From the NCBI GenBank assembly GCA_019261985.1, contig JAFAQY010000020.1, positions 1-64,000 on the forward strand: DNA of 64,000 nt. Direction: 5' to 3'. The number at the start of each line of letters is the position of its first letter. Positions within the stretch are counted from its first letter, which is position 1. The stretch is from Bryobacterales bacterium. Its GTDB lineage: Bacteria; Acidobacteriota; Terriglobia; Bryobacterales; Bryobacteraceae. Position numbers and translations under genes: made by a program. Shown here piece by piece: positions 10,484 through 48,000 of this stretch. The notes beneath the pieces were generated by a model, which did not search any database, was not told the DNA's origin, and saw nothing but the letters and a program-made list of their open reading frames with translations.

Positions 10484-11875
10484 GTGGAACCCAACTCAGA
10501 CGCCCTCGTATTCTTCGGCGCTACCGGCGACCTCGCGTACAAGCAAATCTTCCCCGCGCTCCAGGCGATGACTCGGCACGGGCGCCTGGAAATGCCGGTG
10601 GTCGGAGTCGCGAAGTCGGGCTGGAATCTCGACCAGTTTCGCGAGCATGCTAAGAAAAGCATCGAAGAGCACGGCGGCCTCGACCCCGAAGCTTTTTCGA
10701 AGCTGTGTCACAAGCTCCAGTACATCGACGGCGATTATCGCGATCCGTCTACGTTCGATCAAATCCGCAAGGACCTTGGCAATGCCGCGAGGGCGCTGCA
10801 CTATCTCGCGATTCCGCCCAGCCTGTTCGAGACTGTCGCGGGCGGGTTGGCGAAAGTCGGCCTAGCGAAGGACGCGCGAGTGGTCGTTGAGAAGCCGTTC
10901 GGGCGCGACTTGGCTTCCGCTCGCGAGTTGAACCACACGCTGCGCCAGTTTTTTCCCGAACGCGCCATTTTCCGCATCGACCACTACCTCGGCAAGGAGC
11001 CCGTTCAAAACCTCCTGTATTTCCGCTTCGCCAATTCGTTCCTGGAACCGATCTGGAATCGGAATTACGTCCGTAGCGTTCAGATCACCATGGCTGAAGA
11101 GTTCGGCATTGGCGGCCGGGGAAAGCTGTACGAGGAAACCGGCGCCATTCGCGATGTGATTCAAAATCACATGCTCCAGCTTCTGTCTCTGCTTGCGATG
11201 AATCCGCCGGTTGCGGCCGATCCCGAGGCTGTCCGCAATGAAAAATGCCGTATCCTGCACGCGATCCGAGCTCTTGATCCCGCGGAAGTTGTGCGCGGCC
11301 AGTATCGCGGCTACCGGCAGGAAGAATATGTCTGTCTGGAATCGCAGGTGGAAACGTTCGCCGCTGTAAGGCTGCATATCGATGACTGGCGTTGGGCTGG
11401 AGTACCTTTTTACATTCGAGCCGGAAAACGGCTGCCGGTGACCGCAACGGAAGTGCTGGTGGACTTGAAGCAGCCGCCGCAGACGGTTTTTGGCGATCAT
11501 AATGTGCCTCCCCGGTCAAACTACTTCCGGTTCCGCCTCAGCCCGGATGTGCTGATATCGCTCGGCGCGCGCGCAAAGCTGCCGGGTGAAGCGATGGCCG
11601 GCGAAGAAGTAGAACTGGTCGCCCGGCATCAGGCGAAGGATGTAATGGCGCCCTACGAGCGTCTGCTCGGCGACGCCATGCGCGGCGATGCATCGTTATT
11701 CGCGCGCGAGGATTCGGTCGAGGCCTCCTGGCGCATCGTTGGGCCGGTGCTCGGTGACGTCGTTCCGGTCCAGGAGTATGCCCCTGGCGAGTGGGGACCG
11801 GCGGAAGCTTCGAAAATGATGGACGGCGATGGCGGCTGGCAGGATCCACGCCCCACGCCGCCGGCGCCTTGCTAG
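10484..11875 (+). CDS. zwf: Glucose-6-phosphate 1-dehydrogenase
   Basis: 463 residues from GTG 10484. NADP-binding GATGDLAYK lies at 12-20 and the substrate signature RIDHYLGKE at 164-172. NHML (228-231) supplies the catalytic His, and [10 protein letters not shown] and FYIRAGKRL are also family-typical. The enzyme oxidises glucose-6-phosphate to 6-phosphogluconolactone, producing NADPH, in the cytoplasm. Usual length is 480-500, so it is slightly short but complete, ending in a Pro-rich tail. No pgl or gnd gene is adjacent. Confidence 0.95.
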
Positions 11876-17889: not shown

Positions 17890-18579
17890 TCAATCGTATT
17901 TTTCGTAGAAGATCTGCTTGCGGTCGAACCCCCGGCCTTTCAAGATCCGGCGAACGTCGTCGACCATCGCCTTCAGCCCGCAGAGGTACACGTCGACGTC
18001 GCACCGCCCGCCCAGCGCCTCTTCCAGATGAGCCTGAACGTGGCCTGTGCGGCCCATCCAGCCCGGCTCGGGGCGGCTCAACACCGGCCAAAAGCGGAAG
18101 TGCGAAAATTTTTGCGCCATCTCTTCAAACTCGCGGCGGTACATCAAATGCGATTCATACCGCACACCGAACAGAAGCGTGAACGCGGGCGAACCTTCGC
18201 GCAGGTGCGCTCGGAGCATGGAGCGGAACGGCGCGATACCGGTCCCGGTAGCGATGAATAGCGAATCGCGCGGAGGCTGCCGCAGCACGAACATCCCCAG
18301 CGGCGGTTTCATCTCCAGTGTCTGCCCGGGCTTCATCTGGAACAGAGGCCCGGAAAATACGCCTTCCGGCACGCGATTCAAGCACAGCTCGAATCGATTG
18401 CCATCCCCCGGAGCGGATGCGAGCGAATATGCGCGCGTGATGGTGCGGCCCCCAACTTCGGCCGACAGCGACACGAATTGCCCCGGAACGAATTCGAGCC
18501 GATCCGGGCCTTCGGCCTCGAAGACGAAGTGGCGAACCTCGGGCGCGAGCTCGACGGATTCGATCAGCCTCGCGAGCAT
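17890..18579 (-). CDS. Ferredoxin-NADP reductase-like flavoprotein
   Basis: 229 residues. The FAD domain carries RAYSLAS (RxYS motif, about 49-55) and the NAD(P) domain GTGIAPFRSML and a terminal YLCGLKAMVDDV. The C-terminus KQIFYEKYD with a terminal aromatic resembles Fpr. It would pass electrons between NAD(P)H and a ferredoxin, flavodoxin or oxygenase, in the cytoplasm. It overlaps the chelatase gene upstream by 16 bases, so they share a transcript. Confidence 0.85.
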   Translation of the reverse strand: MLARLIESVELAPEVRHFVFEAEGPDRLEFVPGQFVSLSAEVGGRTITRAYSLASAPGDGNRFELCLNRVPEGVFSGPLFQMKPGQTLEMKPPLGMFVLRQPPRDSLFIATGTGIAPFRSMLRAHLREGSPAFTLLFGVRYESHLMYRREFEEMAQKFSHFRFWPVLSRPEPGWMGRTGHVQAHLEEALGGRCDVDVYLCGLKAMVDDVRRILKGRGFDRKQIFYEKYD

Positions 18580-18938
18580 ACCGGCGCCCGCGCGCGGTCG
18601 AGCAGCGCGTCCACCATCGCGGGATGGCCGTCCAGAGGAGGGGTTGCTTCAAATGCGATCCCGGAATTTGCGGCGGCTGCCTGCTCGATCAGCATGGGAA
18701 GATCGCGTTGCAGATGCAGCCCGAGCGTGAGGAAATACGGGATTACGACAATGCGGCGAACCCCGCGTTGGGCCAGTTGGCGCGCGGCTGAGTTCAAATC
18801 GGGCTCGCCGCCGCCCAAAAACGCAGGAACGACATGTTGCAATTGCCCGCGCCGCGCCATTTCCGCTGCCACCGCGCGCACCGCATCGTTCGCGGATTCG
18901 ATACTCGAGCCGTGCGCGAATACGATGTAGCCGGTCAT
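18564..18938 (-). CDS. CbiX/SirB-type sirohydrochlorin chelatase
   Basis: 124 residues, the usual size of short (single-domain) class II chelatases. The start YIVFAHGSSIESAND contains the metal-binding His (about 9) and VIPYFLTLGLHLQRD the second His. These insert Fe, Co or Ni into sirohydrochlorin for siroheme, cobalamin or F430-like cofactors; which metal cannot be told from sequence. It overlaps its neighbours at both ends, placing it in an operon with the zinc-binding protein and the reductase. Confidence 0.8.
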   Translation of the reverse strand: MTGYIVFAHGSSIESANDAVRAVAAEMARRGQLQHVVPAFLGGGEPDLNSAARQLAQRGVRRIVVIPYFLTLGLHLQRDLPMLIEQAAAANSGIAFEATPPLDGHPAMVDALLDRARAPVCSRG

Positions 18939-25074: not shown

Positions 25075-25247
25075 AGAAACTCCTGTAGACACGACTAAAT
25101 TTGTGTTGTTCGATTCGTACCGAGAGACGGGCTCGCAAGCGCACAGCCCGCACGTGGCGTTGTGCGCGGAAATCAGTCTTAAGCAGGCCGGCGTAGGCCG
25201 ATAGGAGGATTATCAACGTGCGCGAAGAGCCAAGTCAATCCTCCGTT

Positions 25248-25287
25248 GATAGAAACTTTCTATCAGCCGCGTAGAACAAATCAATCG
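25248..25287. repeat. 40-bp imperfect repeat, copy 1, with a palindromic head
   Basis: It begins with the palindrome GATAGAAACTTTCTATC (25248-25264) and ends GAACAAATCAATCG. It matches copy 2 (26014-26053) at 35 of 40 positions by hand alignment. It lies between the TonB-receptor start and vapB. It is either an operator shared with the transporter operon or one side of a duplication flanking the vapBC cassette. Confidence 0.7.
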
Positions 25288-25359
25288 CGACACCCGCTCG
25301 AGGTTGAATTATTCGCCATATTATCCTGGCCTGCCTACGGAGGATGCTATCATGCAGGC

Positions 25360-25608
25360 ATGAAAAGGCAGGCACTCCAATACACTGTACGAGACGTTCC
25401 CGCCGAAGTTGACCGAATGCTTCGGAAAAAGGCGAAGCGCCGCGGGGTGAGCCTTAACCAGATCGTGCTCGAAGAGCTGACCGCGGCGACGGTTGGGCGC
25501 GGTCGCAAGGCGGACTTCTCCGATCTGGTCGGACGATGGGTGCCCGATCCCGAATTCGACGCCATTCTCGCCGCGCAGCGCCAGATCGACTGGGAAAAAT
25601 GGAGCTGA
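25360..25608 (+). CDS. vapB: VapB-type antitoxin
   Basis: 82 residues from ATG 25360. YTVRDVPAEVDRMLRKKAKR is the ribbon plus first helix of a FitA/VapB-like ribbon-helix-helix, and VSLNQIVLEELTAATVG the second helix. The tail DFSDLVGRWVPDPEFDAILA plus QRQIDWEKW is the toxin-wrapping segment typical of FitA-like antitoxins. It overlaps the toxin by 10 bases. The pair lies between two copies of a 40-bp repeat. Confidence 0.85.
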   Translation: MKRQALQYTVRDVPAEVDRMLRKKAKRRGVSLNQIVLEELTAATVGRGRKADFSDLVGRWVPDPEFDAILAAQRQIDWEKWS

Positions 25609-26006
25609 GAGCCGCCCTGGACACTAATCGTGTAAGCGATCTCTTCCAGGGCGATACAGCCCTGGCGGAGAGATTGGAAACATACGATGAAGTCTGGGTC
25701 CCGCTGATGGTCTTGGCGGAGCTCAAGGCAGGGTTCTTTGGAGGTAATCGGCAGCATCGCAATGAGCGTCTGCTTCGCGAGTTACTCGCAAAGCCGACGG
25801 TTCGAGTTCTGTTACCGGGCCGCGAAACAGCCGAACAATACGCGCGCTTGTTCGTTCAGCTCAAGCGCGCCGGCACGCCGATTCCGACGAATGACGTCTG
25901 GATCGCCGCGTTAGCGCTTGAGAACGATCTCTTCCTCGTCACGCGCGACCCTCACTTTCAGCGCATTCCCCAACTGCTACAAGGCTCATTCGGCCCAGCG
26001 ATGTAG
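25599..26006 (+). CDS. vapC: VapC/FitB-type PIN-domain toxin
   Basis: 135 residues from ATG 25599. PIN residues: ALDTNRVSDLF (Asp), VLAELKAGFFGG (Glu), PTNDVWIAALAL (Asp) and LVTRDPHFQRI (Asp). The GFFGG and NDVWIAA motifs are those of the FitB/VapC subgroup. It is a predicted RNase held by the overlapping antitoxin. The gene ends eight bases before repeat copy 2. Confidence 0.9.
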   Translation: MELRAALDTNRVSDLFQGDTALAERLETYDEVWVPLMVLAELKAGFFGGNRQHRNERLLRELLAKPTVRVLLPGRETAEQYARLFVQLKRAGTPIPTNDVWIAALALENDLFLVTRDPHFQRIPQLLQGSFGPAM

Positions 26007-26013
26007 CTTCCCC

Positions 26014-26053
26014 GATAGAAAGTTTCTATTAGCGGCCAAGAACAAATCAATCG
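26014..26053. repeat. 40-bp imperfect repeat, copy 2, upstream of the transporter/guanidine hydrolase operon
   Basis: GATAGAAAGTTTCTATT (26014-26030) followed by a segment ending GAACAAATCAATCG. The five differences from copy 1 are mostly in the loop-like middle. It lies about 70 bases before the first transporter gene, where an operator would be expected. Confidence 0.7.
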
Positions 26054-26090
26054 TTCTGAAGCAGTTGGGGCGCTAAAATAATTCTCAACG

Positions 26091-26126
26091 GCCACGTTGC
26101 CGCGACTCTAAGTCCCCGGACGTGGC
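26091..26126 (+). promoter_or_regulatory. Inverted repeat over the translation start of the transporter operon
   Basis: GCCACGT (26091-26097) and ACGTGGC (26120-26126) are 7-base complementary arms separated by 22 bases. The right arm covers the GTG 26122 start and ends just before the alternative ATG 26128. In RNA this could hide the start codon. I saw no guanidine-I (ykkC) riboswitch consensus here. Confidence 0.3.
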
Positions 26127-27192
26127 AATGCTTAGGAAAGCTCTTTACCTTTGTCTTTTGGCCTGCTGCGCGCTGCCGGCGCAGCAGAAACCTTCTTTCA
26201 CCGTTGGATGGTCCGTGTACGTCGGTTGGGATCCGTATTACTACATGGGCAAATCGGGGATCCTGCGCAAGTGGGCCGATAAGTACGGAATCAACATCCG
26301 CGTGCAGCGTTTTGACTACGCGCCCTCGCTCGATGCGTTCGTTGCGAAGAATATCGACGCGTGCGCGATGACCAACATGGAGGCCCTGGACATGCCCGCG
26401 GCGGCCGGCGTCGATACGACCGCCATCATCGTCGGCGACTATTCGAACGGCAATGACGCGGTGATTACACGCCAGGGCCTCGGGCTTGCGCAGCTTCCTG
26501 GAAAGCCGCTCCTGCTGGTTGAAAAAACCGTTTCGCAGTATCTGTTCGAACGGGCGATGGCGATCAATGGCCTCGGCGATCAGATCAAGCGCGTGAAGTA
26601 CATTAACACTTCCGATTCAGACATCGCGGCTGCATTCATGACGGATGCGAGCAAGCCGGCAGTGGTGACGTGGAAACCCATGGTTTCGCAAATTCTGAAG
26701 ACCAAAGACGTGAAGGTCGTGTTCAATTCATCGCAGATTCCGGGCGAGATTTTGGATCTTATGGTCGTGCGCACCGATATTTTGAACCGGCCGGACGGCT
26801 CGGGCCAAAAGTTTGCGAAGGCGATTGCAGGCGCGTGGTACGAAGTCATGACCCAGATGAACGCCTCCGGCGCCGCAGCCGATAAGACCCTCACAGCCAT
26901 CGCGGAGGCCTCGCAGGATTCGCTCCTATCGTACAAAGAGCAGCTTTCGACGACGCACATGTTTTACACTCCGCAATCGGGCGTTCAGATGGCCGCCTCG
27001 CCCGACCTTAAAAAGACCATGGATCTGGTTCGCCAGTTCTGTTTCAGCCATGGTCTGCTCGGAGATAAGGCAAAATCGCCGGACGAAGTTGCGATTCAAT
27101 TCCCGGATAAAGGCGTTGTGGGCAAGGCCGACCGCGTACGGTTCCGCTTCAGCACCGAATACATGCAAATGGCGGCGGACGGAAAACTATGA
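26122..27192 (+). CDS. Substrate-binding protein of a NitT/TauT-type ABC importer, probably for guanidine
   Basis: 356 residues from GTG 26122, or 354 from ATG 26128, which gives a cleaner signal peptide (MLRKALYLCLLACCALPAQQ). The mature protein opens FTVGWSVYVGWDPYYYMGKSG, the start of periplasmic proteins annotated 'putative urea ABC transporter, urea-carboxylase region' (TIGR03427-like). That group has since been linked to guanidine import. KYGINIRVQRFDYAPSLDAF and ACAMTNMEALD match the NMT1/SsuA fold. It is the first gene of an operon with a permease, an ATPase and a GdmH-like hydrolase, which points to guanidine as ligand. The stop overlaps the permease start (ATGA). Confidence 0.85.
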   Translation: MAMLRKALYLCLLACCALPAQQKPSFTVGWSVYVGWDPYYYMGKSGILRKWADKYGINIRVQRFDYAPSLDAFVAKNIDACAMTNMEALDMPAAAGVDTTAIIVGDYSNGNDAVITRQGLGLAQLPGKPLLLVEKTVSQYLFERAMAINGLGDQIKRVKYINTSDSDIAAAFMTDASKPAVVTWKPMVSQILKTKDVKVVFNSSQIPGEILDLMVVRTDILNRPDGSGQKFAKAIAGAWYEVMTQMNASGAAADKTLTAIAEASQDSLLSYKEQLSTTHMFYTPQSGVQMAASPDLKKTMDLVRQFCFSHGLLGDKAKSPDEVAIQFPDKGVVGKADRVRFRFSTEYMQMAADGKL

Positions 27193-28013
27193 CGTTTTTC
27201 CATATTCACGATCAGCCCGGCCGGACCGCCGCATTGATTTTGTCCTGGCTGATTTTCGCCGGTGGCATCGCGAGTTATTTTTATGTCGCCATTGAGCGGC
27301 ATCGCGATAATCCCGACGATCGAGTAATGCCGACGATTTCTCAGATGGTTCAAGGCTTCAAAGACGCCGCGATGAAGCCGGCGGAAGAAGATGAAGAGAA
27401 TGCCCCGCACAGCATGTTATGGAAAGATTCGATCGCGACAGGGCGCCGGTTTCTGATCAGCGTTGCGCTTTTATTTCCCGCCGTGTTGATTGGTTTACAT
27501 ATGGCGCTGTTTCCCTACGTCGGCGCGTTATTTTTGCGCTTCTTCCAGTTCTTTGACAAGATCGTCGCGCTTTCGCTGCTCCCGATTATTTTCATCGCGT
27601 TTGGAATTGACGAGCTATCGAAGGTCATGCTGATCGTAATCGGCGTCGCGCCCACGATCATTCTCGACACATTCAATCTCAGTAAAGCCGTGCCGCGTGA
27701 AACCGTCGTCAAAGCATTTACGCTTGGGGCGGGCGACTTCGGGATCGCTTACCGCGTGGTTTTCAAGCAAATTCTTCCGCGCGTTTTAAACAGCATTCGG
27801 CTGAATTTAAAAGCCGTGATGCTGTTTCTATTCGCGGGTGAAATGATCGCCTCCACCGACGGGCTGGCCTATCGCATCGCCCTGCTGCGCCGCCACATGG
27901 GAATGGACACAATCATTCCCTACGTGTTGTGGGTCGCGCTGCTGTTGTTCCTGGTCGATTTAGGAATGAGCCTGCTGAATCGAAAACTACATCCCTGGTT
28001 TCAAGAGACGTGA
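27189..28013 (+). CDS. ABC importer permease of the guanidine/urea-type transporter
   Basis: 274 residues with six or so hydrophobic helices: one near the N-terminus (TAALILSWLIFAGGIASYFYV) and the rest after residue 85. The coupling motif 'EAA' reads AFTLGAGDFGIAYRVVFKQILP, where the loop contacts the ATPase. It belongs to the BPD_transp_1 family of nitrate/taurine permeases. It overlaps the binding-protein gene by four bases and its TGA overlaps the ATPase GTG, so the three genes are translated in step. Confidence 0.88.
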   Translation: MTFFHIHDQPGRTAALILSWLIFAGGIASYFYVAIERHRDNPDDRVMPTISQMVQGFKDAAMKPAEEDEENAPHSMLWKDSIATGRRFLISVALLFPAVLIGLHMALFPYVGALFLRFFQFFDKIVALSLLPIIFIAFGIDELSKVMLIVIGVAPTIILDTFNLSKAVPRETVVKAFTLGAGDFGIAYRVVFKQILPRVLNSIRLNLKAVMLFLFAGEMIASTDGLAYRIALLRRHMGMDTIIPYVLWVALLLFLVDLGMSLLNRKLHPWFQET

Positions 28014-28672
28014 ACATTCAGATTCAAAACGTCTCGGTCGAATATCAACGGCCAATTCTCGAGAACATCGATCTGGAGATCGAGGCCGGGGAATTTGTGT
28101 CGATTGTCGGCCAGACGGGATGCGGCAAATCCACGCTGCTGCGCTTGATCCTGGGCGAGCAGATCCCGTCTCGGGGACGCGTACTCGTGGGTGGAAAGGA
28201 GCGCACGCAACCCGACCCGACGTGCGGTTACGTTCCCCAGAAGTATTCGCTTTTTCCGGATCGAACCGTATTGGGAAACGTGACGTTTGGGTTGAATGGC
28301 CGCGGGGCGCGAGAAACCGCCCTAAAAATGATCCAGCGTACAGGTTTGAAGGAATCGGACGCGGCGAAGTATCCGCATCAGCTTTCCGGCGGCATGCAGC
28401 AGCGCGTTGCGATTGCGCAGGCTTTGGTAATGAATCCGCCGGTGCTGCTGATGGACGAAGCATTCAGCGCGCTCGACCCCGGTACACGCGCGGGAATGCA
28501 ACGTCTGATTAAGGAATTGTGGGAGGAAAGCGGCACTACGATCGTGTTTGTAACGCACAACACGCGGGAAGCCGCCTATTTGGGAACGAGAGTGATTGCG
28601 CTGGCAAACCGCTCTATCGCACTGGATGTCTCCGCTCCCGCGGAAGAAGAATTGGAACATGTCTTTCTATAA
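28010..28672 (+). CDS. ABC importer ATPase of the guanidine/urea-type transporter
   Basis: 220 residues from GTG 28010, which overlaps the permease stop; the longer frame lies inside the permease gene. Walker A GQTGCGKST, Q-loop YVPQKYSLF, signature LSGGMQQR, Walker B VLLMDEAFSALD and the H-loop VTHNTREA are all present. It is the short form of NitD/SsuB-like ATPases. It energises import through the permease at 27189. Its last 14 bases overlap the hydrolase gene. Confidence 0.9.
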   Translation: MNIQIQNVSVEYQRPILENIDLEIEAGEFVSIVGQTGCGKSTLLRLILGEQIPSRGRVLVGGKERTQPDPTCGYVPQKYSLFPDRTVLGNVTFGLNGRGARETALKMIQRTGLKESDAAKYPHQLSGGMQQRVAIAQALVMNPPVLLMDEAFSALDPGTRAGMQRLIKELWEESGTTIVFVTHNTREAAYLGTRVIALANRSIALDVSAPAEEELEHVFL

Positions 28673-29813
28673 AACACACGCGCCACGTTATCGCGAACAC
28701 AACCGTTCACTGCCCGACTTCGCCGATTTGGAAGGCATGCGGGCGCTCCACGAAGAGAATGAGATTCCGCTCAAGCAATGGAAGGAAGAAGTACGCCGGG
28801 GAAAGGAATTTGGGCTTGAATGCGTGGACTCCATCGAAGATAAGAGTGAGATCAGTTGCTTCCAGCGCGGCGAGCTGCCGCACTGGTCCGGCATAAATAC
28901 ATTCCTGAAGACGCACTACCTGGAAGACGTCCGGCAAGTCGGCCAGTATGATGTCGCTTTCATGGGCGTGCCGTTCGATATCGGCACCACATACCGGGCC
29001 GGCACGCGCTTCGGGCCACAGGGGATTCGAAGGATTTCATCGCTATACACAACGTACAACTTCGAGCTCGGCGTAGACCTGCGCGAATCTTTGAAGATGT
29101 GCGATATCGGCGATGTCTTTTGCCCCGCGAACATCACCAAGAGCCACGACCAGATTTCGAAAGGCGTTGCGCACGTGCTTTCCAGCGGCACTCTGCCGAT
29201 GATTATGGGCGGCGATCACTCGATCGGGTATCCGTGCGTGCGCGGCGTGGCGCAATGCGTTGAAGGAAAGGTCGGAATCATCCATTTGGACCGGCACATC
29301 GACACGCAGGAAAAAGACATGGACGAAATCATGCACACTTGTCCGTGGTTTCATGCGACGAACATTCCGAATTGCCCGCCGACGAATCTGGTGCAAGTCG
29401 GCATCGGCGGGTGGCAGGTTCCGCGTCCGGGCGTGAAAAAAGGCCGCGAACGCGGATCGACGGTGCTGACCATCCAAGACATCGAGCGCATCGGCATCGA
29501 TAAAACCGTTGAGATTGCGCTCGAAGTGGCCTGGAAGGGCGCGTCAGCGGTTTATCTGTCGTTCGACGTGGATTCGGTGGACGCGGGCTTCGTTCCGGGC
29601 ACGGGCTGGCCGGAGCCGGGCGGATTTCTACCGCGCGAGGCGCTGGCGATTTTGAAGGGCGTCGCGAAGGAGGGTATCGCGGCCATGGAGGCGGTGGAGG
29701 TCTCCCCGCCCTACGATATCTCCGATATCACGGCGCTTGTCGCCGTCCGAGCCATGGTGGATGTGCTTGCGACAATGGTCAAACATGGCCGCATTGGCGG
29801 AAAGCTCGGCTGA
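28659..29813 (+). CDS. gdmH: Ureohydrolase of the nickel-dependent guanidine hydrolase (GdmH) type
   Basis: 384 residues from ATG 28659. It has the ureohydrolase (arginase/agmatinase) fold with metal ligands in GGDHSIGYP (His187), DRHID (Asp211, His213, Asp215) and SFDVDSVD (Asp303, Asp305). Unlike arginases and agmatinases the second motif is DRHIDTQ rather than DAHxD. There is also a long N-terminal extension (about 95 residues) and GTGWPEPGGFLPRE with Trp317. Those features match, from memory, the cyanobacterial enzyme Sll1077, shown to hydrolyse guanidine to urea and ammonia with nickel. The upstream ABC importer is also found beside cyanobacterial gdmH, which supports the call. Agmatinase or guanidino-acid activity cannot be excluded from sequence. 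No HypA/HypB-like nickel chaperones are adjacent. Confidence 0.82.
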   Translation: MSFYKTHAPRYREHNRSLPDFADLEGMRALHEENEIPLKQWKEEVRRGKEFGLECVDSIEDKSEISCFQRGELPHWSGINTFLKTHYLEDVRQVGQYDVAFMGVPFDIGTTYRAGTRFGPQGIRRISSLYTTYNFELGVDLRESLKMCDIGDVFCPANITKSHDQISKGVAHVLSSGTLPMIMGGDHSIGYPCVRGVAQCVEGKVGIIHLDRHIDTQEKDMDEIMHTCPWFHATNIPNCPPTNLVQVGIGGWQVPRPGVKKGRERGSTVLTIQDIERIGIDKTVEIALEVAWKGASAVYLSFDVDSVDAGFVPGTGWPEPGGFLPREALAILKGVAKEGIAAMEAVEVSPPYDISDITALVAVRAMVDVLATMVKHGRIGGKLG

Positions 29814-31494
29814 AAAGGCAACTCCTGAATTTTTAATTCTTACCGATCTGCCGCGCGGCCACGCGCTGTGGCCTTCAGCTCTTGCGCAGGTGGATGTGAT
29901 CCGGGCGGCTTGCGCTCCGGTGCTGGGGTTCGAGCCGTGCGTGAGGCTCGTTTGTGCGGCGGAGATGCCGGTGCGAGAAGGCGTCGAAACGTTCGTGTTG
30001 CCCGCGGCCCTCGATTTCAGTTTGTGGGAACGCGAGGAGCTTGGGCGAAAGATCGCGGAGGCGCGGCGGGGGCATCCGAAGAACCTAATTTTTCACGACG
30101 ATATCGATCCGGGACATCCGCTGTTGGTAGATGCGCTCGTAGGACAAGCTTCAGCTTGTCTCGCTGGACAAGCTAAAGCTTGTCCTACTTGCGGGTTGGT
30201 TTTTGCGGCTAGCGGGCATGGCGATTCCGCAAGCCGGGCCCAGAGCTATCGCCTGATGCGGCTGATTTGGGAGCAGGCGGGATTCGCGCGCGCGGAAGTT
30301 GGTTTTTTGAGACACGTTCAGCCGTTTTTGGCCCACGTGTTGGAGCGATGTGCTCGCGAGCCGATTCCGTGGGTTGTGCTCTTTCAGGGCCAATGGGAAA
30401 CCGAGCACGTCGAGTACGCGCGGGTGATGGTGGAGAATGTCCGCCGTGCAAACCCGCAACCACAAATCCATTTCGCCGATCCTCCTGGAGCGCACGAACT
30501 ATTCACCGCCTGGTACGCTCAGCGGATCGCCAAGTTGTGGCGCGAGAGGCGCGCTCGCTCGGAGGCGCGCGCGCCATCGCCGAAACGGTCAGCGCCCGAG
30601 CCGCCCGGCTTGCTGAGGTTTGGCGCGGGGACTATCGCTCGAGTGAGCGATCAAGCGCGGATGTCTCGGGTCTTGGAACAAGTCTTGCCCCCGGCGAAGC
30701 CAGATCGGATTTTGGTCAAGGTCACGTGGCACGGATACGCCACAGGAACGTACACGGACCCGGCCGCGCTCGATCTGCTGCTGAGCGCGCTTCCCGCGCC
30801 CGCCATCGTTCTCGAAGGTCACACCAGCAGCCGCAATCTCGGCGGCGCGGAGTTCGATTGGGAGACCGAAGCGAGGGAAAATCGAGCCTGGATTCGCCGG
30901 CAGGAGGCAGAATATCTGCGGCGGACGGGTCTTCAGGAAGTCCTGACCCGACATCGCGCGCAATACGTCAATGTCACCGAAGAGTTTTGGAACGAGGAGT
31001 ACGAAGGCGATCCCGCGAATTTCGTTCCCAGCGTGCTGCGAGAATTGAAAGGCTCGCCAATGCTGAATTTTCCGAAATTCAAAGGCCCCACGCGCCTCGC
31101 CGTCTCTAATATGTTCGGGCTGATTCCGCTTCCGCTAAGGAGCGCCTGGCACGGGCCGAACATCACCTGGTTTGCGCGAGCTTGCTGCAACATGGCGAAA
31201 CTATACAGCGAGCTGTTTGAGCTGTCGGCCGTGGTGGAAGGTCTCTATTCGGCGGTGCGTTGGAACCGCCAGGGATTATATCGAAGCCGCTGGGGCAATT
31301 ACGATTTGATTCACGACGCAGGCTGCGTTACCGCTAGCCCGGGGCTCGCGGCCGCGGATATTCTGGCTGCGCGGCTCCAAGGGCAGAACGTGCACACGAG
31401 CGCTTTTTTCGATGTGGTACGGCAGGAGTTGGGCTGGGATGAGGAGGCCGCGACGGCGGAGCTGCCGGAGGTTCTCAGGATGCTGTTTGTGTGA
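29785..31494 (+). CDS. Fusion of a CbiX-like chelatase region to a DUF362-like domain
   Basis: 569 residues if started at ATG 29785, overlapping gdmH by 29 bases. Residues about 14-240 resemble a CbiX-type class II chelatase: FLILTDLPRGHALWP, LIFHDDIDPGHPLLV, then VFAASGHGDSASRAQSY with His145, and WVVLFQGQWETEHVEY. A basic linker (RRARSEARAPSPKRS) leads to a C-terminal part (about 300-560) like DUF362: RILVKVTWHGYATGTYTDPA, IVLEGHTSSRN, MLNFPKFKGPTRLAVSNMFG. I know of no named protein with this order. Its place as last gene of the GdmH operon suggests a role in metal handling or cofactor supply for the nickel enzyme; that is inference. A palindromic repeat has inserted in frame at residues 119-135. 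Confidence 0.6.
   Translation: MAALAESSAEKATPEFLILTDLPRGHALWPSALAQVDVIRAACAPVLGFEPCVRLVCAAEMPVREGVETFVLPAALDFSLWEREELGRKIAEARRGHPKNLIFHDDIDPGHPLLVDALVGQASACLAGQAKACPTCGLVFAASGHGDSASRAQSYRLMRLIWEQAGFARAEVGFLRHVQPFLAHVLERCAREPIPWVVLFQGQWETEHVEYARVMVENVRRANPQPQIHFADPPGAHELFTAWYAQRIAKLWRERRARSEARAPSPKRSAPEPPGLLRFGAGTIARVSDQARMSRVLEQVLPPAKPDRILVKVTWHGYATGTYTDPAALDLLLSALPAPAIVLEGHTSSRNLGGAEFDWETEARENRAWIRRQEAEYLRRTGLQEVLTRHRAQYVNVTEEFWNEEYEGDPANFVPSVLRELKGSPMLNFPKFKGPTRLAVSNMFGLIPLPLRSAWHGPNITWFARACCNMAKLYSELFELSAVVEGLYSAVRWNRQGLYRSRWGNYDLIHDAGCVTASPGLAAADILAARLQGQNVHTSAFFDVVRQELGWDEEAATAELPEVLRMLFV
30139..30188. repeat. 50-bp palindromic repeat inside the CbiX-DUF362 gene
   Basis: Two 22-base arms (30139-30160 and 30167-30188) are complementary with one mismatch, separated by TCGCTG. 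The outer ends are GTAGGACAAGC and GCTTGTCCTAC. It is translated as VGQASACLAGQAKACPT, a stretch out of character with the surrounding protein. Core and layout resemble the intergenic GCTTCAGC family. Confidence 0.85.
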
Positions 31495-31497
31495 CGA

Positions 31498-32154
31498 TCA
31501 GCGGCTTTCGTCTTCGAGTTCCGCCGGCTCGGCGGCGCCGGCGGGCTCACGCAATTTCGCGAGTGTAGGCGTGTCGAACGAGAAATGCTCGGCCAGAACA
31601 TCGGCTGCGCTGAAGCGCGGTTTCGCGACTCCATCGTTATTGTGATGCCGCGTTTTCGTCAGTATATGGTACAGCTCGTGGGCGATCAAGCGGCCCATCG
31701 CGCGCCCGTAGAGGAACTCCTGCTTATTCTCGTACTTTGATAGCGGGGCAGCCAGCATTCGAGAAAGAGTATCGCATTCGACCCAGCTAAACGGGAGGAC
31801 TTCGCCATCCGAAACCGCAGTTGAGGCCAAAGCGGACGGCGCGGTTAAAGGCGCGACGGGCGTAGAAGGATCCGGCGATTCACAATTGCCGCGAAGCTCA
31901 ACCACGACAATAGGCCCTTCCACGGCATTGGAGCTGCCGCCTGGTAGACTTCGCCACTCGATGTGATATCCGGCAGTTTCCATCAGCGCATTGGCTTCCC
32001 GCTGCATGGCTTGAATAGGCTCGGCGCGCTGACCGGAGGTTGTCCGCAGGTATACAACTACTGGACGTTTCTCCAGACCGACGAGGTCCGGCGAACCGAA
32101 ACATGGAGCGACGCTCAGTAACCCGACGAGGGTGGCAAGTAGGCGCGCAGACAT
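31498..32154 (-). CDS. Secreted HExxH-type putative metalloprotease
   Basis: 218 residues with a signal peptide (MSARLLATLVGLLSVAPCFG). IAHELYHILTKTRHHNNDG contains HExxH (His159, Glu160, His163), followed by His170/171, roughly where a metzincin-like third ligand would be. The sequence before it (FLYGRAMGRLIAHE) is the expected active-site helix. No named family is recognised. It is convergent with the fusion gene, with three bases between stops. Confidence 0.5.
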   Translation of the reverse strand: MSARLLATLVGLLSVAPCFGSPDLVGLEKRPVVVYLRTTSGQRAEPIQAMQREANALMETAGYHIEWRSLPGGSSNAVEGPIVVVELRGNCESPDPSTPVAPLTAPSALASTAVSDGEVLPFSWVECDTLSRMLAAPLSKYENKQEFLYGRAMGRLIAHELYHILTKTRHHNNDGVAKPRFSAADVLAEHFSFDTPTLAKLREPAGAAEPAELEDESR

Positions 32155-32225
32155 GGCGCAAGCACACGAGCATTATACATGCTCGGGCTGGGCGCGCGCT
32201 TGTCACCGGGACCGAAGAATCTCGC

Positions 32226-33254
32226 TTAAGGCTGCTTCGAGCTAAACCTCCATACGTTTCCGTCGCGCAAATTCGAAAGCCAGATAGACCCGTGGGCGAC
32301 CCGAATGGAATCGCCACCCGGGCCGAACCATTGTTTAATGACCGTATTGGTGGCAGGATCGATTTCGGTTATGGGGATCTCGAAAACCGTGGCCCAAACG
32401 TGGCCTTCACCGAACGCGATTTCGCCGCCGGTTCCGGGGACTCCGAGTTCGATATTGGCGATAAGGTTGCCGGATTTCGCGTCCACCCTGGAGACTGTGC
32501 CGTCACCCTGATTCAGGGTCCAGACCGAGCCTGCGCCCGTCGTGAGAAATCGAGGCTGCGGACCGACCTGAACGGAGTGGATAACCGAGTTGGTCTTCGG
32601 GTCCACGCCGCTTAGCATGTTGGAATCCGGGGAGGTGACCCATACCATGCCTTCCCCATAGGTCACTCCGGCGGAGTTCGGCGGCACTGCCACCTGCGCG
32701 ATCACTTTGTTTTGGTTCGCATCGATTTTGGAGAGGACGCCTTTGGGGTCCGTAACCAGCCAGACTCCTTCGGGACTGGCGGCGATACCTCCTTCGCTTG
32801 CGGCGGGACCGATTGCGATCGTGGCGACTACCTGATTTGTCGCGACATCGATTCGCGATACCGTCTTGTCGCCGCAGTTCGGAACCCAGATGCTTCCGAA
32901 ACCGGATGCGAGTCCCGAGCAGGGGCGCTTGCCTACGGTGATTTCCGCGGCGACTGTATTGGTTTTCGCATCGAGCCTGTAGACCGTATTTTTCGGCGCA
33001 TTGGAGACCCATTCGGCATCGGCGGTGGATGCCTGCCAATCCGGCAACCCTCCCGTCTGGAAGATCGCGTCCGGCTTGATGCCGGACATCTCGCGGCGGA
33101 CTTCCAGGGTGGCGACGCCGGGACGCGGTGGCCGTTTGGCGCGCGGCTTCTTCTGGCCATCCGGCGCCGGCGTGGACGAACTGTCTTGCGCGGGCAAGAA
33201 AGCACACGCGGCCGCCGCGAGGAGTGTTGCGAGGATCGGTCGAGCTCTCCGCAT
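32226..33254 (-). CDS. Secreted virginiamycin-B-lyase-like beta-propeller (copy 2)
   Basis: 342 residues from ATG 33254; an Arg/Ser-rich extension upstream is not used. Signal peptide MRRARPILATLLAAAACAFLPAQ, then a basic Pro-rich linker. Blades of the form 'GSIWVPNCGDKTVSRIDVATNQVVATIAIG' repeat about seven times, the YVTN/Vgb propeller. True Vgb lyases have catalytic His/Glu residues that I cannot identify here, so a structural or binding role is as likely. It starts seven bases after its paralogue, so they form a tandem pair. Confidence 0.75.
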   Translation of the reverse strand: MRRARPILATLLAAAACAFLPAQDSSSTPAPDGQKKPRAKRPPRPGVATLEVRREMSGIKPDAIFQTGGLPDWQASTADAEWVSNAPKNTVYRLDAKTNTVAAEITVGKRPCSGLASGFGSIWVPNCGDKTVSRIDVATNQVVATIAIGPAASEGGIAASPEGVWLVTDPKGVLSKIDANQNKVIAQVAVPPNSAGVTYGEGMVWVTSPDSNMLSGVDPKTNSVIHSVQVGPQPRFLTTGAGSVWTLNQGDGTVSRVDAKSGNLIANIELGVPGTGGEIAFGEGHVWATVFEIPITEIDPATNTVIKQWFGPGGDSIRVAHGSIWLSNLRDGNVWRFSSKQP

Positions 33255-33261
33255 GCGGTTG

Positions 33262-34296
33262 CTATTCGGCAAGCGTGGCGATCGCGCGCTTCGGGTCGAT
33301 GCGCGAGACCGTTCCCTTCCCGATATTCGAGAGCCAGATGGCATTAGCCGTGGCCGAGATGAGTCCGCCGCCCTCGCCCCAGAACTGCTGCGCCACTCGT
33401 TCCTTGTCGGTTTCAGGATCGATTCGTGTGAGAGGGAATCCCGTTTGTGTCGCCCACAGAAATCCGGCTCCGAAAGCCAGGTTTCCCCCGGCGTTGGGCA
33501 CAGCGAGATCGAGAGTCTTTATCACCTTATTCGTTTTTGGATCGATGCGATCGATCTTACCTTCCTTTTCGCACAGGACCCAAACGGACCCCGCGCCGAA
33601 GGCCACTGAGCGCGCGCTGGTCGAAACCTCGATACGTTTCTCTACGAGATTTGTTGCGGGGTTAACGCGAAGCAGGCGCGTCTCGGAGGGGCACGTTACC
33701 CAAAGGGAATTCTCGCCGAACGCGATGCTGTTGCAACCCGCGGGAAGGCGCAGCTCGGCGACGACTCGGTTTTGATCGGGGTCGATGCGCGCCAGCGTGG
33801 TTTTGGAGTCGACCAGCATCCAGATGCTATCGGAGTTGGATGCCAACGCCATGCTGACGTCGGCGGATCCGATAGCCAGCGAAGCCGTTGCTTTATTAAT
33901 TTTCGTATCGAACCTGGTCAGCTTCTGCGGGCCGCATTCGGGAATCCACAGGCTGCCGAACGCGACGAGAGTACCGGAGCAGGGCTGCTTCAGGTCCGTT
34001 ATGGGATCGAGAGTTTTATTCGTCTTCGGGTCGATGCGCGCGACGGTACCCTTTGATTTGCTTGCGACGAAGATCGAGTCAGCGGCGTTGACGAAGCCGG
34101 GCGACTCAACCGGGATGTCAGCTTCGAACTTCAGATTCTCGAAAGGCATTTGGATACCCGGAGTCTTGATACCCGCTTTCGGCGCGATAGGAGCCGGAGC
34201 AGCCTTGCTTTTGGCATCGGCCTTAGCCGGATCGGGCGGAGCCGCAATAAGTCCTCCGGTTATGAGACAAACAGTTGCGGCAATAAGCGTGCGCAT
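33262..34296 (-). CDS. Secreted virginiamycin-B-lyase-like beta-propeller (copy 1)
   Basis: 344 residues, signal peptide MRTLIAATVCLITGGLIAA and an Ala/Lys/Pro-rich linker. It carries the same blade pattern as the following gene (FGSLWIPECGPQKLTRFDTK, NSLWVTCPSETRLLRVNPATN, GSVWVLCEKEGKIDRIDPKT), so the two arose by duplication. Shared features include an added Cys pair (LKQPCSG, PECG), which the paralogue has as KRPCSG and PNCG. Both probably act outside the cytoplasm. Function unknown. Confidence 0.75.
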   Translation of the reverse strand: MRTLIAATVCLITGGLIAAPPDPAKADAKSKAAPAPIAPKAGIKTPGIQMPFENLKFEADIPVESPGFVNAADSIFVASKSKGTVARIDPKTNKTLDPITDLKQPCSGTLVAFGSLWIPECGPQKLTRFDTKINKATASLAIGSADVSMALASNSDSIWMLVDSKTTLARIDPDQNRVVAELRLPAGCNSIAFGENSLWVTCPSETRLLRVNPATNLVEKRIEVSTSARSVAFGAGSVWVLCEKEGKIDRIDPKTNKVIKTLDLAVPNAGGNLAFGAGFLWATQTGFPLTRIDPETDKERVAQQFWGEGGGLISATANAIWLSNIGKGTVSRIDPKRAIATLAE

Positions 34297-43385: not shown

Positions 43386-44051
43386 CTACGCGTGAGAGTG
43401 ATGGTGGTGATGATCGCCATGCGCGTGGCTGGGCGTGCCTGGGGCCGTCAAGCCGCGCGCTTTCTGCTCTAACAGCCAAGCGGTGACTTGGTCCAGTCCG
43501 GTCCCGTCCACCAGATTCGTAAAGATGAACGGGGCATCGCCGCGGGCGCGTCGCGCGTCCCGATCCATGACCTCGAGTGACGCGCCGACGTGAGGCGCGA
43601 GGTCCATCTTGTTGATCACCAGCAGATCGCTGCGCTTGATTCCGGGGCCGCCTTTGCGCGGGATTTTATCGCCGCCCGCGACATCGATGACATAGATGAA
43701 TGCGTCGACCAACTCGGGGCTGAACGCGGCAGCGAGATTGTCGCCCCCGCTTTCGACAAAGATCAGCTCAACTCCAGGATGCCTCGCTTCCAGTTCCGCA
43801 ATCGCCTCCAGATTCATGGATGCGTCTTCGCGAATTGCCGCATGCGGACAACCGCCCGTTTCGACGCCGAGCACGCGGTCCGCGGGCAGCGTGCCCTGCC
43901 GCATCAGGAATTCGGCATCCTCCTTGGTATAGATATCGTTGGTGACGACGGCCAGGTTCAATTGCGGCCAAAGCCGTTTGCTGAGCCGGTCAACCAGGGC
44001 GGTTTTGCCGCTGCCGACGGGACCGGCGATACCTACTCGAAATGCTCGCAT
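43386..44051 (-). CDS. ureG: Urease accessory GTPase UreG with a C-terminal histidine tail
   Basis: 221 residues. P-loop [10 protein letters not shown] (10-19), [25 protein letters not shown] (nickel-binding Cys-Pro-His), [13 protein letters not shown] and NKMDLA (G4). It couples GTP hydrolysis to nickel insertion into urease. The C-terminus ends [13 protein letters not shown], a metal-binding tail more usual on UreE, which is absent from this operon. I infer that UreG here also collects nickel. It is the last gene of the operon, 10 bases after ureC. Confidence 0.96.
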
Positions 44052-44061
44052 TCAAGACTCC

Positions 44062-45774
44062 TTAAAACAAAAAATATCGTTGGGCCAACGGCAGGATTGT
44101 CGCCGGCTCGCAAGTTAATAGCTCGCCGTTTGCGCGAACTTCGTATGTCTCCGGGTCCACCTCAATCTCCGGCGTCGCGGAGTTGTGGATCATGTCCCGC
44201 TTGCCTATGCCGCGGCAGTTTCGGACGGCCACGGCGCGTTTCCTGAAAAGCTTCTCGATACCAGCATCTAGCGAAGCCGCGGAAACAAATGTCGCCGACG
44301 TTGACGCGGTCGCTCCTCCGAACGATCCGAACATGGGGCGATAGAGCACGGGCTGCGGCGTGGGGATCGACGCATTGGCATCGCCCATTACGCTCCACGC
44401 TATGAAGCCGCCTTTGATCGCCATCTCGGGCTTCACGCCGAACATCGAGGGCTTCCACAAAACTATGTCCGCGAGCTTCCCTGGCTCAATAGAACCAACT
44501 TCCCCGGCGACCCCGTGCGTCACCGCCGGATTAATCGTATATTTCGCAACGTAGCGCTTGGCGCGGAAGTTATCGTTGCGCGAGGAATCCTCTGGCAGAG
44601 CGCCTCTTTGAGTCTTCATCTTATGCGCCGTCTGCCATGTTCGAGTGACTACTTCGCCGATGCGGCCCATCGCCTGCGAGTCGCTTGAAATCATGCTGAA
44701 AACGCCAAGATCGTGCAGGATATCTTCGGCGGCGATGGTTTCCGGACGGATGCGGCTTTCGGCGAACGCCACGTCTTCGGGGACCTGAGGGTTCAAATGA
44801 TGGCAGACCATCAGCATGTCAAGGTGCTCGGCAATGGTGTTGATCGTGTATGGGCGCGTGGGATTGGTGGAGGAAGGAAGGATATGCGGCAACGCCGAGA
44901 TGCGGATGATGTCGGGTGCGTGGCCGCCGCCTGCGCCTTCCGTGTGATAGGTGTGAATGGCGCGTCCGGCGATCGCGGCGATGGTGTCTTCCACGAAACC
45001 GGCTTCGTTGATGGTATCGGTATGAATCGCGACTTGGACATCCAGCTTATCCGCCACACGCAGGCACGCGTCGATAGCGGCGGGGGTGGTGCCCCAGTCT
45101 TCATGCAGCTTCAGGCCGCAAGCTCCGGCCCGGACCTGCTCTTCCAGCGGCTCGCCGGTGCCCGCATTGCCTTTGCCGAGGAAGCCGAAGTTCATCGGCC
45201 ATGCATCCGCGGCTTCGAACATGCGGGCCAGGTTCCAGGCGCCCGGAGTGCACGTCGTCGCGGCTGTGCCGGTCGCGGGTCCGGTACCGCCGCCGATCAT
45301 TGTGGTGATGCCGTTCGACAGAGCCTCATAGACTTGCTGCGGCGAGATGAAATGGATATGGCTGTCGATGGCGCCGGCGGTGGCGATGAGATTTTCGCCT
45401 GCGATAACCTCCGTCGATGCCCCCACCACGAGCTCGGGATCGACGCCTTCCATTGTGTCCGGATTTCCGGCCTTGCCGACCTTCACAATGCGGCCATCGC
45501 GGATTCCGATGTCGGCTTTGACAATCCCCCAGTAATCGAGAATCAGCGCATTGGTGATCACTAGGTCGAGCGCTCCCGCCGAGCGAGTGGCGCGGGCGCT
45601 TTGGCCCATTCCGTCGCGGATGACTTTCCCTCCTCCGAACGTGATCTCGTCTCCGTAAACGGCGAAATCTTTTTCGACTTCGACGATCAGATCGGTGTCG
45701 GCCAGGCGGATGCGGTCCCCGGTGGTGGGGCCGTAGAGATCGGCGTAGGTGCGGCGTGGAATGGAGAGGCTCAT
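44062..45774 (-). CDS. ureC: Urease alpha (catalytic) subunit
   Basis: 570 residues, full length. Nickel ligands and catalytic motifs are present: [22 protein letters not shown] (carbamylated Lys), [25 protein letters not shown] and the flap [24 protein letters not shown] (Cys and catalytic His). [13 protein letters not shown] is also present. It hydrolyses urea to ammonia and carbamate with two Ni ions. The start overlaps the ureB stop by four bases. It appears fully functional. Confidence 0.98.
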
Positions 45775-46085
45775 TTCGTCCCTTTGCCTTGGTGGCCAAG
45801 CACGACGCGCGCGCCGGCGAATTCCACCAGATTGACTTCCTTTTCTTCGCCCGGCTCGAAGCGGACGCTTGTGCCGGCGGGGATGTTGAGCCGCATCCCG
45901 CGCGCCGCGCTCCGCTCGAACTTCAAGCCGTTGTTTACTTCGAAAAAGTGATAGTGGCTGCCGACTTGTACGGGGCGGTCGCCGGTATTGCGCACGATGG
46001 CGGTTGCAGTCTTGCGGCCCGCATTGGCGTCAATCGCCTTGTTCTCGAGAATGTATTCACCTGGTTTCATCTGGACGAGCCTCAT
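45771..46085 (-). CDS. ureB: Urease beta subunit
   Basis: 104 residues from ATG 46085; the longer open frame runs into ureA and is a shadow. [20 protein letters not shown], then [19 protein letters not shown] and [14 protein letters not shown], are classic UreB motifs. It is a structural subunit of the cytoplasmic (alpha-beta-gamma)3 urease. It overlaps both neighbours (ATGA at each end). Confidence 0.96.
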
Positions 46086-46384
46086 TGAATTGGATCGTGT
46101 ACTGTCACTAATTTCGTCCCATCTGGAAAGGTAGCTTCCACCTGCACCTCGTGGATCATTTCTGGAATGCCTTCCATGACGTCCCCTGTTCCCAGCACCG
46201 TTCCCCCGAGGCTCATGATTTCCGCGACCGTTTTTCCGTCGCGAGCCCATTCGAGAATCTCGGCGGTAATCAGCGCCATCGCTTCCGGATAATTCAGCTT
46301 CAGGCCCCGTGCGCGCCGTTTTCGCGCGACGTCGGCGGCAACATAAATCAGCAGGCGCTCTTGTTCGCGTGCCGTGAGATGCAT
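46082..46384 (-). CDS. ureA: Urease gamma subunit
   Basis: 100 residues, the standard length. [63 protein letters not shown]. Smallest structural subunit of urease. The start follows ureD by nine bases; the stop overlaps the ureB start. Separate gamma and beta genes are the common bacterial arrangement. Confidence 0.97.
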
Positions 46385-46393
46385 TGTGTTCTC

Positions 46394-47278
46394 CTAGTAA
46401 ACCTTTCGCGGCGGGATGGCGTCCTCCCCGGTCACCGCTTTGCGCGCTCGGCGCCAGAACTCAATCAAGGCCGCCGGAATAACGCGATACGAAGCGGTGA
46501 CTCCGCGGACCAGCACGCCGCCGGAGTGAAGAGTTGTCGCCCCCCAGATGGCTTCTCCGTGGCGCGTCCGCTCGCTCGCGACCGAGTTCAGTTCGTCTTC
46601 GAGCGCGCGCCAAAACACCGGCTCCCGGCTTGGTTGGCAAACGTACAAACTAGCTATATACGAGTACTCCCCCAGGCGGGCGGGCACCGCGAGCGGCCGC
46701 TTCTTGGGCTCGAGCAGAAAACTTTCGCGCATCAATGGCATGCTGCCGCTGGAAATTTCGCTTTCCACGCGCAGCCTCTCGAATGCGAACGATTCGCCCG
46801 AGGCCAGACGCCCCGGCGCGAGAACTTCCCACCAAAACACACATGCGCTCTCCGCAAGATGAATCCGAGTGCATTGTGTATGGCGCGAGCGCGCATAAGG
46901 GATCACCGGGTCGGGCAAGTATTCGAGGCGCGCTCGTTCGCCGACGATAAACTCCACGTGCTGTTCGGAATCGGGCGCGCCGGCGCGATGGCGATACAAC
47001 CGAGTCGCGCCGGTAGTGGTGATCTGCGCGGCTGCGCCGGGATCGACCTGCACTCGAAGCGAGAGACGATCTCCGGCCAGGACGCCGCCGGAAACGTTGT
47101 TCAGATGCACCAATGTGCCGGCGTCCGGCTGTGGAAACGCGCGCACCACCTTCCACGGGGGGTCCTGGCGCAGCACCCTGATTCGGGTTGGCTCAAAACG
47201 CAAACTCAGCTGATGAAGAGGCGCGTCTCGAGCGAGCCGTGGCGCATCGACGCCAGCTCCGGATACGGACTGAAGCAC
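46394..47278 (-). CDS. ureD: Urease accessory protein UreD
   Basis: About 294 residues from GTG 47278, with GAGGAGG four bases before it; a TTG one codon earlier is possible. [21 protein letters not shown] and [14 protein letters not shown], then [15 protein letters not shown], are UreD signatures. It forms the UreDFG complex that docks on apo-urease and passes nickel through an internal tunnel. The start region overlaps the end of ureF by 73 bases, an unusually long overlap in a different frame. Confidence 0.93.
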
Positions 47279-47832
47279 CAAACCTCCTCATTCGCTGAAG
47301 CCCGTGCGATCTCGGGTTTCAAGTTCCACAGGATCTTCGCCGCCGCGGCCTGCCCTAGCGGCATTAAGCGCTGGCACGCGGATACGAGGCCCGCTACGGA
47401 CTGATGCACATACGCGAGAGCGGTATCGTTTTCGGAAATTCCTAACAATGCGCCGGCGGCTCCGAAGACGACGCAGTAATGCAAGCCCGTATCGAGCACG
47501 GCCGATCCCAGCAACCCATTGACTAGATCGGCGAATCTCCGCCCTAATTTCAAACTGGCGTCTCGGGACTCCCGCGCCGGGCGGCGCGCGCTGTAATCGC
47601 GGCTGAGGCGCTGCGGGTCGCCCGCTCGCCATCCGAACCGCACGAATGCCGCATCCAGACGGCCGCTTTCTTCTAGATGATCGCGCAGGAACTCTTCGAG
47701 ATTCTGCGGCGCTAGTACGCCTTCTTCCGCGAGGGTTTCGAGACCGAACGAATGCGCCGCGCCGCCGACCGGCAATGCCGAGTCGGCAAGCTGAAGTAAA
47801 CGCAGCAACGATACGTTTGTGGAATTAGCCAT
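47206..47832 (-). CDS. ureF: Urease accessory protein UreF
   Basis: 208 residues from ATG 47832; TTG 47865 is an in-frame alternative. [23 protein letters not shown] is the UreF signature, with the usual helical body and a C-terminal SLETRLFIS that should engage UreG/UreD. First gene of the operon ureF-D-A-B-C-G. UreF gates the GTPase activity of UreG during nickel delivery. No ureE and no urea transporter lies beside it. Confidence 0.93.
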
Positions 47833-48000
47833 GCGCCTGTTGCTTAACGGCGGGGTTATGCGCAAACTTGGCGCGCTTGCGAAAAAAACGCTTAATTGAA
47901 AATTGTACCAGCGGCGCGTAACGCAGGCGACTGTTCAAAGCGCGGCAGAACCGAACCTGACGCCGCCGGACCGGTCGACTTTCCGCGTCGGCCCTGTAGG

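Follow-up and report, generated by a model that had tools for sequence, protein, structure and literature searches.

The locus studied here raises the question of how a guanidinase of a nickel-dependent group may be supplied with its metal in a genome without the HypA and HypB chaperones. It lies in a 64,000-nucleotide stretch from a Bryobacterales bacterium of the Acidobacteriota (assembly GCA_019261985.1, contig JAFAQY010000020.1, positions 1 to 64,000), hereafter the window. A sequence-only reading of the window had described, at 26122-31494, a four-gene operon for guanidine uptake and hydrolysis from which HypA/HypB-like proteins were missing. The four genes are there, with the positions, + strand and overlap described, but the open reading frames (ORFs) and their translations give five overlapping + strand genes in the span. 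The fifth (29785-31494), which we call G5, had not been described, and its position inside the span explains why the span ends at 31494. Thus, the absence of the chaperones was noticed correctly, yet the gene occupying their slot was overlooked. With moderate confidence, we read the locus as a guanidine import and hydrolysis operon in which G5 would be a dedicated nickel-loading accessory of its guanidinase clade.

Layout of the operon

The five genes, with G5 treated as a candidate, are as follows.

26122-27192, + strand: substrate-binding protein of the importer, 'urea carboxylase region' group (TIGR03427, 469.9 bits against a cut-off of 333.9)
27189-28013, + strand: ATP-binding cassette (ABC) permease (PF00528, 46.2 bits)
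27929-28672, + strand: ABC ATPase (PF00005, 114 bits), start uncertain, the true one probably near 28000
28659-29813, + strand: gdmH, predicted guanidinase of the Sll1077 group (PF00491, 255.1 bits)
29785-31494, + strand: G5, 569 amino acids, candidate metal-loading partner of GdmH, with a chelatase lobe and a LarA/DUF362-clan domain in predicted models

As drawn, successive genes overlap by 4, 85, 14 and 29 bases, although the 85-base value depends on the uncertain start of the ATPase gene; transcription as one operon would fit this arrangement. The score of the binding protein bears out the importer group named earlier. At the level of sequence, the families of the enzyme and the importer, as well as the urease treated below, are shown.

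The ureohydrolase groups with guanidinases

Compared with solved structures, the 28659-29813 protein scored 505 bits against 7esr/7oi1, which we take to be Sll1077, and 503 bits against 9fek, versus 169 bits for the next-best ureohydrolase, a guanidinobutyrase; all others were lower, agmatinases reaching 133.7 bits at most. Structure 9fek is the guanidinase of the comammox Nitrospira N. inopinata (PMC11410670, available text). When residue numbers are taken from the accessible part of the same paper (PMC11410670), the alignment shows that the window enzyme keeps the six metal ligands (H187, D211, H213, D215, D303 and D305) and the four guanidine residues (T111, H226, W317 and E347). The motifs DRHIDTQ and GTGWPEPGG, from which a likeness to Sll1077 had been proposed, are both present in the translation, and the scores and the ten matching residues sustain that likeness.

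In a 33-row tree, the window enzyme was placed among the guanidinases (29 rows, support 92/97, not starred), whereas guanidinobutyrase, guanidinopropionase, proclavaminate amidinohydrolase and the genome's own 306-residue paralogue all fell outside; the outgroup branches are long, the root serves for drawing only, and agmatinases were compared through the structure-search scores rather than in the tree. This is the placement expected under the sequence-only reading, which had named a position inside the agmatinase or guanidinobutyrase clade as its refutation. Trp317 is kept in 26 of the 27 DNA-derived gdmH rows, the remaining one (L044) having Thr. Together, these data support assignment of the protein to the nickel-dependent Sll1077 group of guanidinases, with guanidine and nickel as its predicted substrate and metal.

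G5 is a steady companion of gdmH

G5 had no Pfam or NCBIfam match at E 0.001. To see how it is distributed, we compared 21 non-cyanobacterial gdmH loci from named records. G5 lies immediately 3' of gdmH, on the same strand, in 18 of them, and in the L007 genome it shares a contig with gdmH at a distance of about 34 kb, making 19 of 21 genomes, or 20 of 22 with the window's own. The count excludes a 52-bit partial match in the L018 genome (its inclusion gives 20/21), and second matches of about 50 bits in the L016 and L020 genomes were left uncounted. The titles of the G5 records name groups of Acidobacteriota, Myxococcota, Poribacteria, Desulfovibrionaceae, Latescibacterota and Planctomycetota; most of these genomes are metagenome bins, whose taxon labels may err.

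Among 150 genomes of the family, gdmH occurs in six and G5 in the identical six (exact chance 7e-11, kinship ignored). The five other than the window's own add no cases, because their coordinates match L001, L003, L004, L005 and L019. Both genes were found in one and the same genome of 297 Acidobacteriota surveyed, and gdmH in one of 294 Planctomycetota, this being the survey's centre genome itself (G5 was not searched there). All 17 tree rows from G5-holding genomes group in a single guanidinase clade (support 100/100) that excludes every other row. Protein distances of GdmH and G5 are correlated (r 0.73 over 16 loci, equalled in none of 200 permutations), as expected for co-inherited genes. 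By comparison, the importer is less constant: the window type occurs in 6 of the 21 loci (L001-L005, L019) and a distant type in 8 (L008-L014, L018); 7 have no complete importer match, 6 of these (L006, L007, L015, L016, L017, L020) matching no importer gene at all. A close genetic link between G5 and gdmH is thus shown by gene order and co-occurrence.

At eight GdmH positions the 17 G5-type rows share one residue that none of the 12 others has; three of these positions (155, 160 and 163) lie next to a short deletion. Of four other clades examined in this way, two have nine such positions, so the count is unremarkable and serves as a lead only. The plasmid collection held no full-length G5, but two partial matches annotated as sirohydrochlorin chelatases. 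In the literature on guanidine, guanidinase or agmatinase together with DUF362, chelatase, sirohydrochlorin or CbiX, covered as titles and abstract beginnings with few subscription papers, no G5-type partner was reported. Within G5, a palindromic repeat at 30142-30185 (GGACAAGCTTCAGCTTGTC and a near copy) is in frame; other members have the same length there and a different sequence.

Predicted folds of the two G5 domains

An AlphaFold2 model of full-length G5 (predicted local distance difference test, pLDDT, 80.4; predicted template modelling score, pTM, 0.54) was divided into two domains.

29818-30555, + strand: G5 residues 12-257, class II chelatase fold (predicted model)
30601-31491, + strand: G5 residues 273-569, LarA-like domain with a weak profile match to DUF362 (predicted model)

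In the model, the first lobe resembles ferrochelatase CpfC (Z 23.0, root-mean-square deviation (rmsd) 2.5 over 245 aligned residues) and, further, SirB (Z 22.3), CbiX (19.6) and CbiK (17.8); the G5 model matched the SirB structure at E 7.8e-9. Sequence matches are weaker, at E 0.00027 to SirB, and the CbiX Pfam family matches 14 of 16 G5 members when E values as high as 5 are allowed (best 7e-12), with the window member below the cut-off. A class II chelatase fold of residues 12-257 is therefore predicted on the strength of the model. By reasoning from motifs, H145 and H208 in the second half of the lobe align with the histidine pair of CbiK-type chelatases, to which the available text of PMC7689651 gives a metal-site role. 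R176-H177 is constant in the 16 members and in L006, L009 and L012, and is Arg-Asn in the L007 genome. Elsewhere in the window, a canonical small CbiX gene (18600-18914, - strand, 88.8 bits) adjoins a ferredoxin-reductase-like gene (17890-18579).

The C-terminal domain folded alone gave a pLDDT of 82.4 and a pTM of 0.86. A Foldseek search with this model returned nothing with E below 0.001; VIA-align gave lactate racemase 2yjg as its best match (Z 12.3, 191 aligned residues, rmsd 3.5). The top eight rows had Z 10.8-12.3, and the next, unrelated row 5.9; seven of the eight are lactate racemase, malate racemase or LarA-like proteins, and 4nar has no functional title. DUF362 matches 11 of 16 G5 members weakly under the same E limit of 5, the lowest E being 0.0016, and scores 15.5 on the window member, below its cut-off of 24. 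Pfam clan CL0471 includes both DUF362 and the LarA family, DUF2088 (PMC11770544, available text). A search of PDB with the profile of this domain gave chance-level matches alone and no sequence match to LarA, and no larA beside larC was seen by eye in the two genomes checked. The modelled domain is thus LarA-like in fold, and its relation to LarA is confined to the fold and the Pfam clan.

Possible nickel handling around gdmH

HypA and HypB are absent from the operon span, as previously noted, and from the whole genome (98.83% complete): PF01155 gave nothing at E 1e-5, and TIGR00073 matched the UreG gene alone, below cut-off. Among the 22 gdmH genomes, 13 lack both proteins above the cut-offs. 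In cyanobacteria, a pair of nickel chaperones activates GdmH (PMC11271267 and PMC11399263, available texts), and the Synechocystis Sll1077 locus combines HypA/HypB-like chaperones with an ABC importer, according to the accessible part of PMC8390497. That locus shares with the window identical guanidinase active-site residues and a broadly similar importer; it differs in that the window genome has no HypA/HypB, carries G5 behind the enzyme and encodes an enzyme of a separate clade. Comammox Nitrospira likewise has a guanidinase without HypA/HypB, but with an APC permease and a guanidine-I riboswitch (PMC11410670, available text) in place of the ABC importer and G5 of the window. The metformin hydrolase operon, described as hypA, hypB, two ureohydrolases and hupE, also has a nickel ureohydrolase adjoined by accessory metal genes (PMC11399263, accessible part); its ureohydrolases are of another branch (132.6 bits or less to the window enzyme) and its accessory genes of other families. 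For the related enzyme MetCaCb, the available text of PMC11271267 reports that a chaperone knockout does not grow on metformin.

Of 11 plasmid matches to gdmH, eight loci were compared. A histidine-rich protein gene stands behind gdmH in the four alphaproteobacterial ones (L040, L042, L045 and L046) and is followed by a HupE/UreJ permease in both Sinorhizobium loci, for example at 6160-7308 of L046, to which the histidine-rich genes of the other three are related; the four actinobacterial loci matched neither. In L017, the nickel-pincer cofactor gene larC1 (10909-11634) lies 0.9 kb behind G5. Of the 20 genomes with G5, 18 have larC1; both gdmH genomes without G5 lack it, but two genomes are too small a sample to count. 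Metal handling is thereby suggested, rather than proven, as the function of the slot behind gdmH.

Separately, a metallo-beta-lactamase-like gene lies near gdmH or G5 in three genomes (L004 9492-10388, L003 5833-6678 and, by eye, L061 9951-10976). The Paenibacillus locus L018 has a Guanidine-I riboswitch (4034-4185) 5' of its importer and gdmH, the only one among the 20 loci scanned (all except L021).

Urease and other neighbouring genes

43386-47865, - strand: urease operon ureF-ureD-ureA-ureB-ureC-ureG, about 12 kb from the guanidine operon on the same contig

The sequence-only reading had called this operon complete. All six genes are present, but the word is slightly too strong, because no ureE was seen among the ORFs listed at the operon (a genome-wide search for ureE was not made). 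UreG (43386-44051) has a histidine-rich C-terminal tail. Urease genes lie downstream in the same direction in 3 of 21 relatives: L002 and L019 carry ureF, D, A, B, C and G directly behind G5 on the same strand (ureB of L002 by eye), and L001 carries ureF and ureD before its contig ends. Given the urease operon of the window and the urease genes behind G5 in relatives, a route from guanidine through urea to ammonia is a sound reading, in which urease would take the second step. The window, L002 and L019 also gave matches to 5_ureB_sRNA, but these overlap urease genes encoded on the opposite strand and were given no weight.

Immediately upstream of the guanidine operon is a gene pair for a FitA-like ribbon-helix-helix antitoxin and a PIN-domain protein (25246-26006), and immediately 3' of it two adjacent - strand genes (32226-34296) encode proteins that are beta-propeller-like by eye.

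Proposed role of G5 and rival explanations

Under the reading we favour, the ABC importer would take in guanidine, GdmH would split it into urea and ammonia, and the urease on the same contig would be able to cleave the resulting urea. The chelatase lobe of G5 would bind a divalent metal, nickel being the likeliest, and together with the LarA-like domain may help to deliver it to GdmH, so that G5 would stand in for the cyanobacterial HypA/HypB and the alphaproteobacterial histidine-rich protein.

Several observations weigh against this role. Fold likenesses in predicted models say nothing certain on function. Both histidines of the H145/H208 pair are kept in 10 of 16 G5 members, one in a single member and neither in five, so that G5 would not simply be a chelatase of known type; it also differs from class II chelatases in its weak sequence match and its fused second domain. 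The G5 relative in L009 stops after the chelatase lobe, with no trace of the C-terminal domain in the locus, which suggests that this lobe may be the core of G5. All nine gdmH genomes that have HypA and HypB also hold G5, the chaperone genes lying on other contigs or, in the L020 genome, about 200 kb from G5; G5 is thus not strictly a HypA/HypB replacement. Conversely, the Bacillota genomes L018 and L021 have gdmH without G5 and without HypA/HypB, and comammox bacteria have no known nickel chaperones for their guanidinase, as far as the available text of PMC11410670 states; a helper can therefore be dispensable. MetCaCb is active in cell extracts without its chaperones (PMC11271267, accessible part). 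Two G5 genomes had no larC1 match, the completeness of one of them being unknown, and no guanidine riboswitch was found in the window at the gathering score or at 25300-32300 with E up to 5.

G5 could instead be a metabolic enzyme of the guanidine route with no part in metal loading, for instance one that uses a nickel-pincer nucleotide in the LarA-like domain to act on a guanidine-derived or co-imported compound. The predicted fold of this domain, its wealth of invariant residues and the frequency of larC1, near G5 in L017, would suit such an enzyme; however, the relation to LarA holds at the level of fold and clan alone, larC1 is not matched throughout, L009 keeps the chelatase lobe without the LarA-like domain, and guanidine is converted to urea with no additional enzyme. 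We consider this explanation unlikely. Far less probable still is that G5 inserts metal into sirohydrochlorin or another tetrapyrrole and belongs to the operon by accident. The predicted chelatase fold and a uroporphyrinogen methyltransferase in the genome speak for it, but a role in siroheme synthesis ranks low because the window already encodes a canonical CbiX, and the joint loss of the histidine pair and the association with gdmH across several phyla also argue against it. The enzyme itself might act mainly on another guanidino compound, the operon then having nothing to do with guanidine: related ureohydrolases are separated by few residues, the N. inopinata guanidinase releases some urea from agmatine (PMC11410670, available text), and positions 155, 160, 163 and 224 carry residues peculiar to the G5-type clade. 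Against this stand the gap in score between guanidinases and guanidinobutyrase, the retention of both T111 and W317, and the TIGR03427 group of the binding protein, and we regard it as very improbable.

Nickel loading by G5 thus remains the reading we favour. A bolder form of it would make G5 a new class of nickel insertase, whose chelatase lobe captures nickel and whose LarA-like domain hands it on to the HypA/HypB-free guanidinase clade and, in certain species, to the neighbouring urease as well. A small organic molecule, for example the nickel-pincer nucleotide, might serve as the carrier; this form is speculative and, in our estimate, doubtful.

Significance

Judged by its sequence, the guanidine operon is real. 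The G5-bearing type is a new form of a known kind of operon. In genomes whose labels span six phyla, a clade of guanidinases is accompanied by a single uncharacterised gene, G5, which in predicted models combines two folds familiar from metal or nickel-cofactor biochemistry. This matters for the nickel supply of non-cyanobacterial guanidinases, since the loading mechanism of the comammox enzyme is called unclear in the available text of PMC11410670. If the proposed role is true, at least three different proteins, HypA/HypB, the histidine-rich protein and G5, would occupy the slot beside guanidinase.

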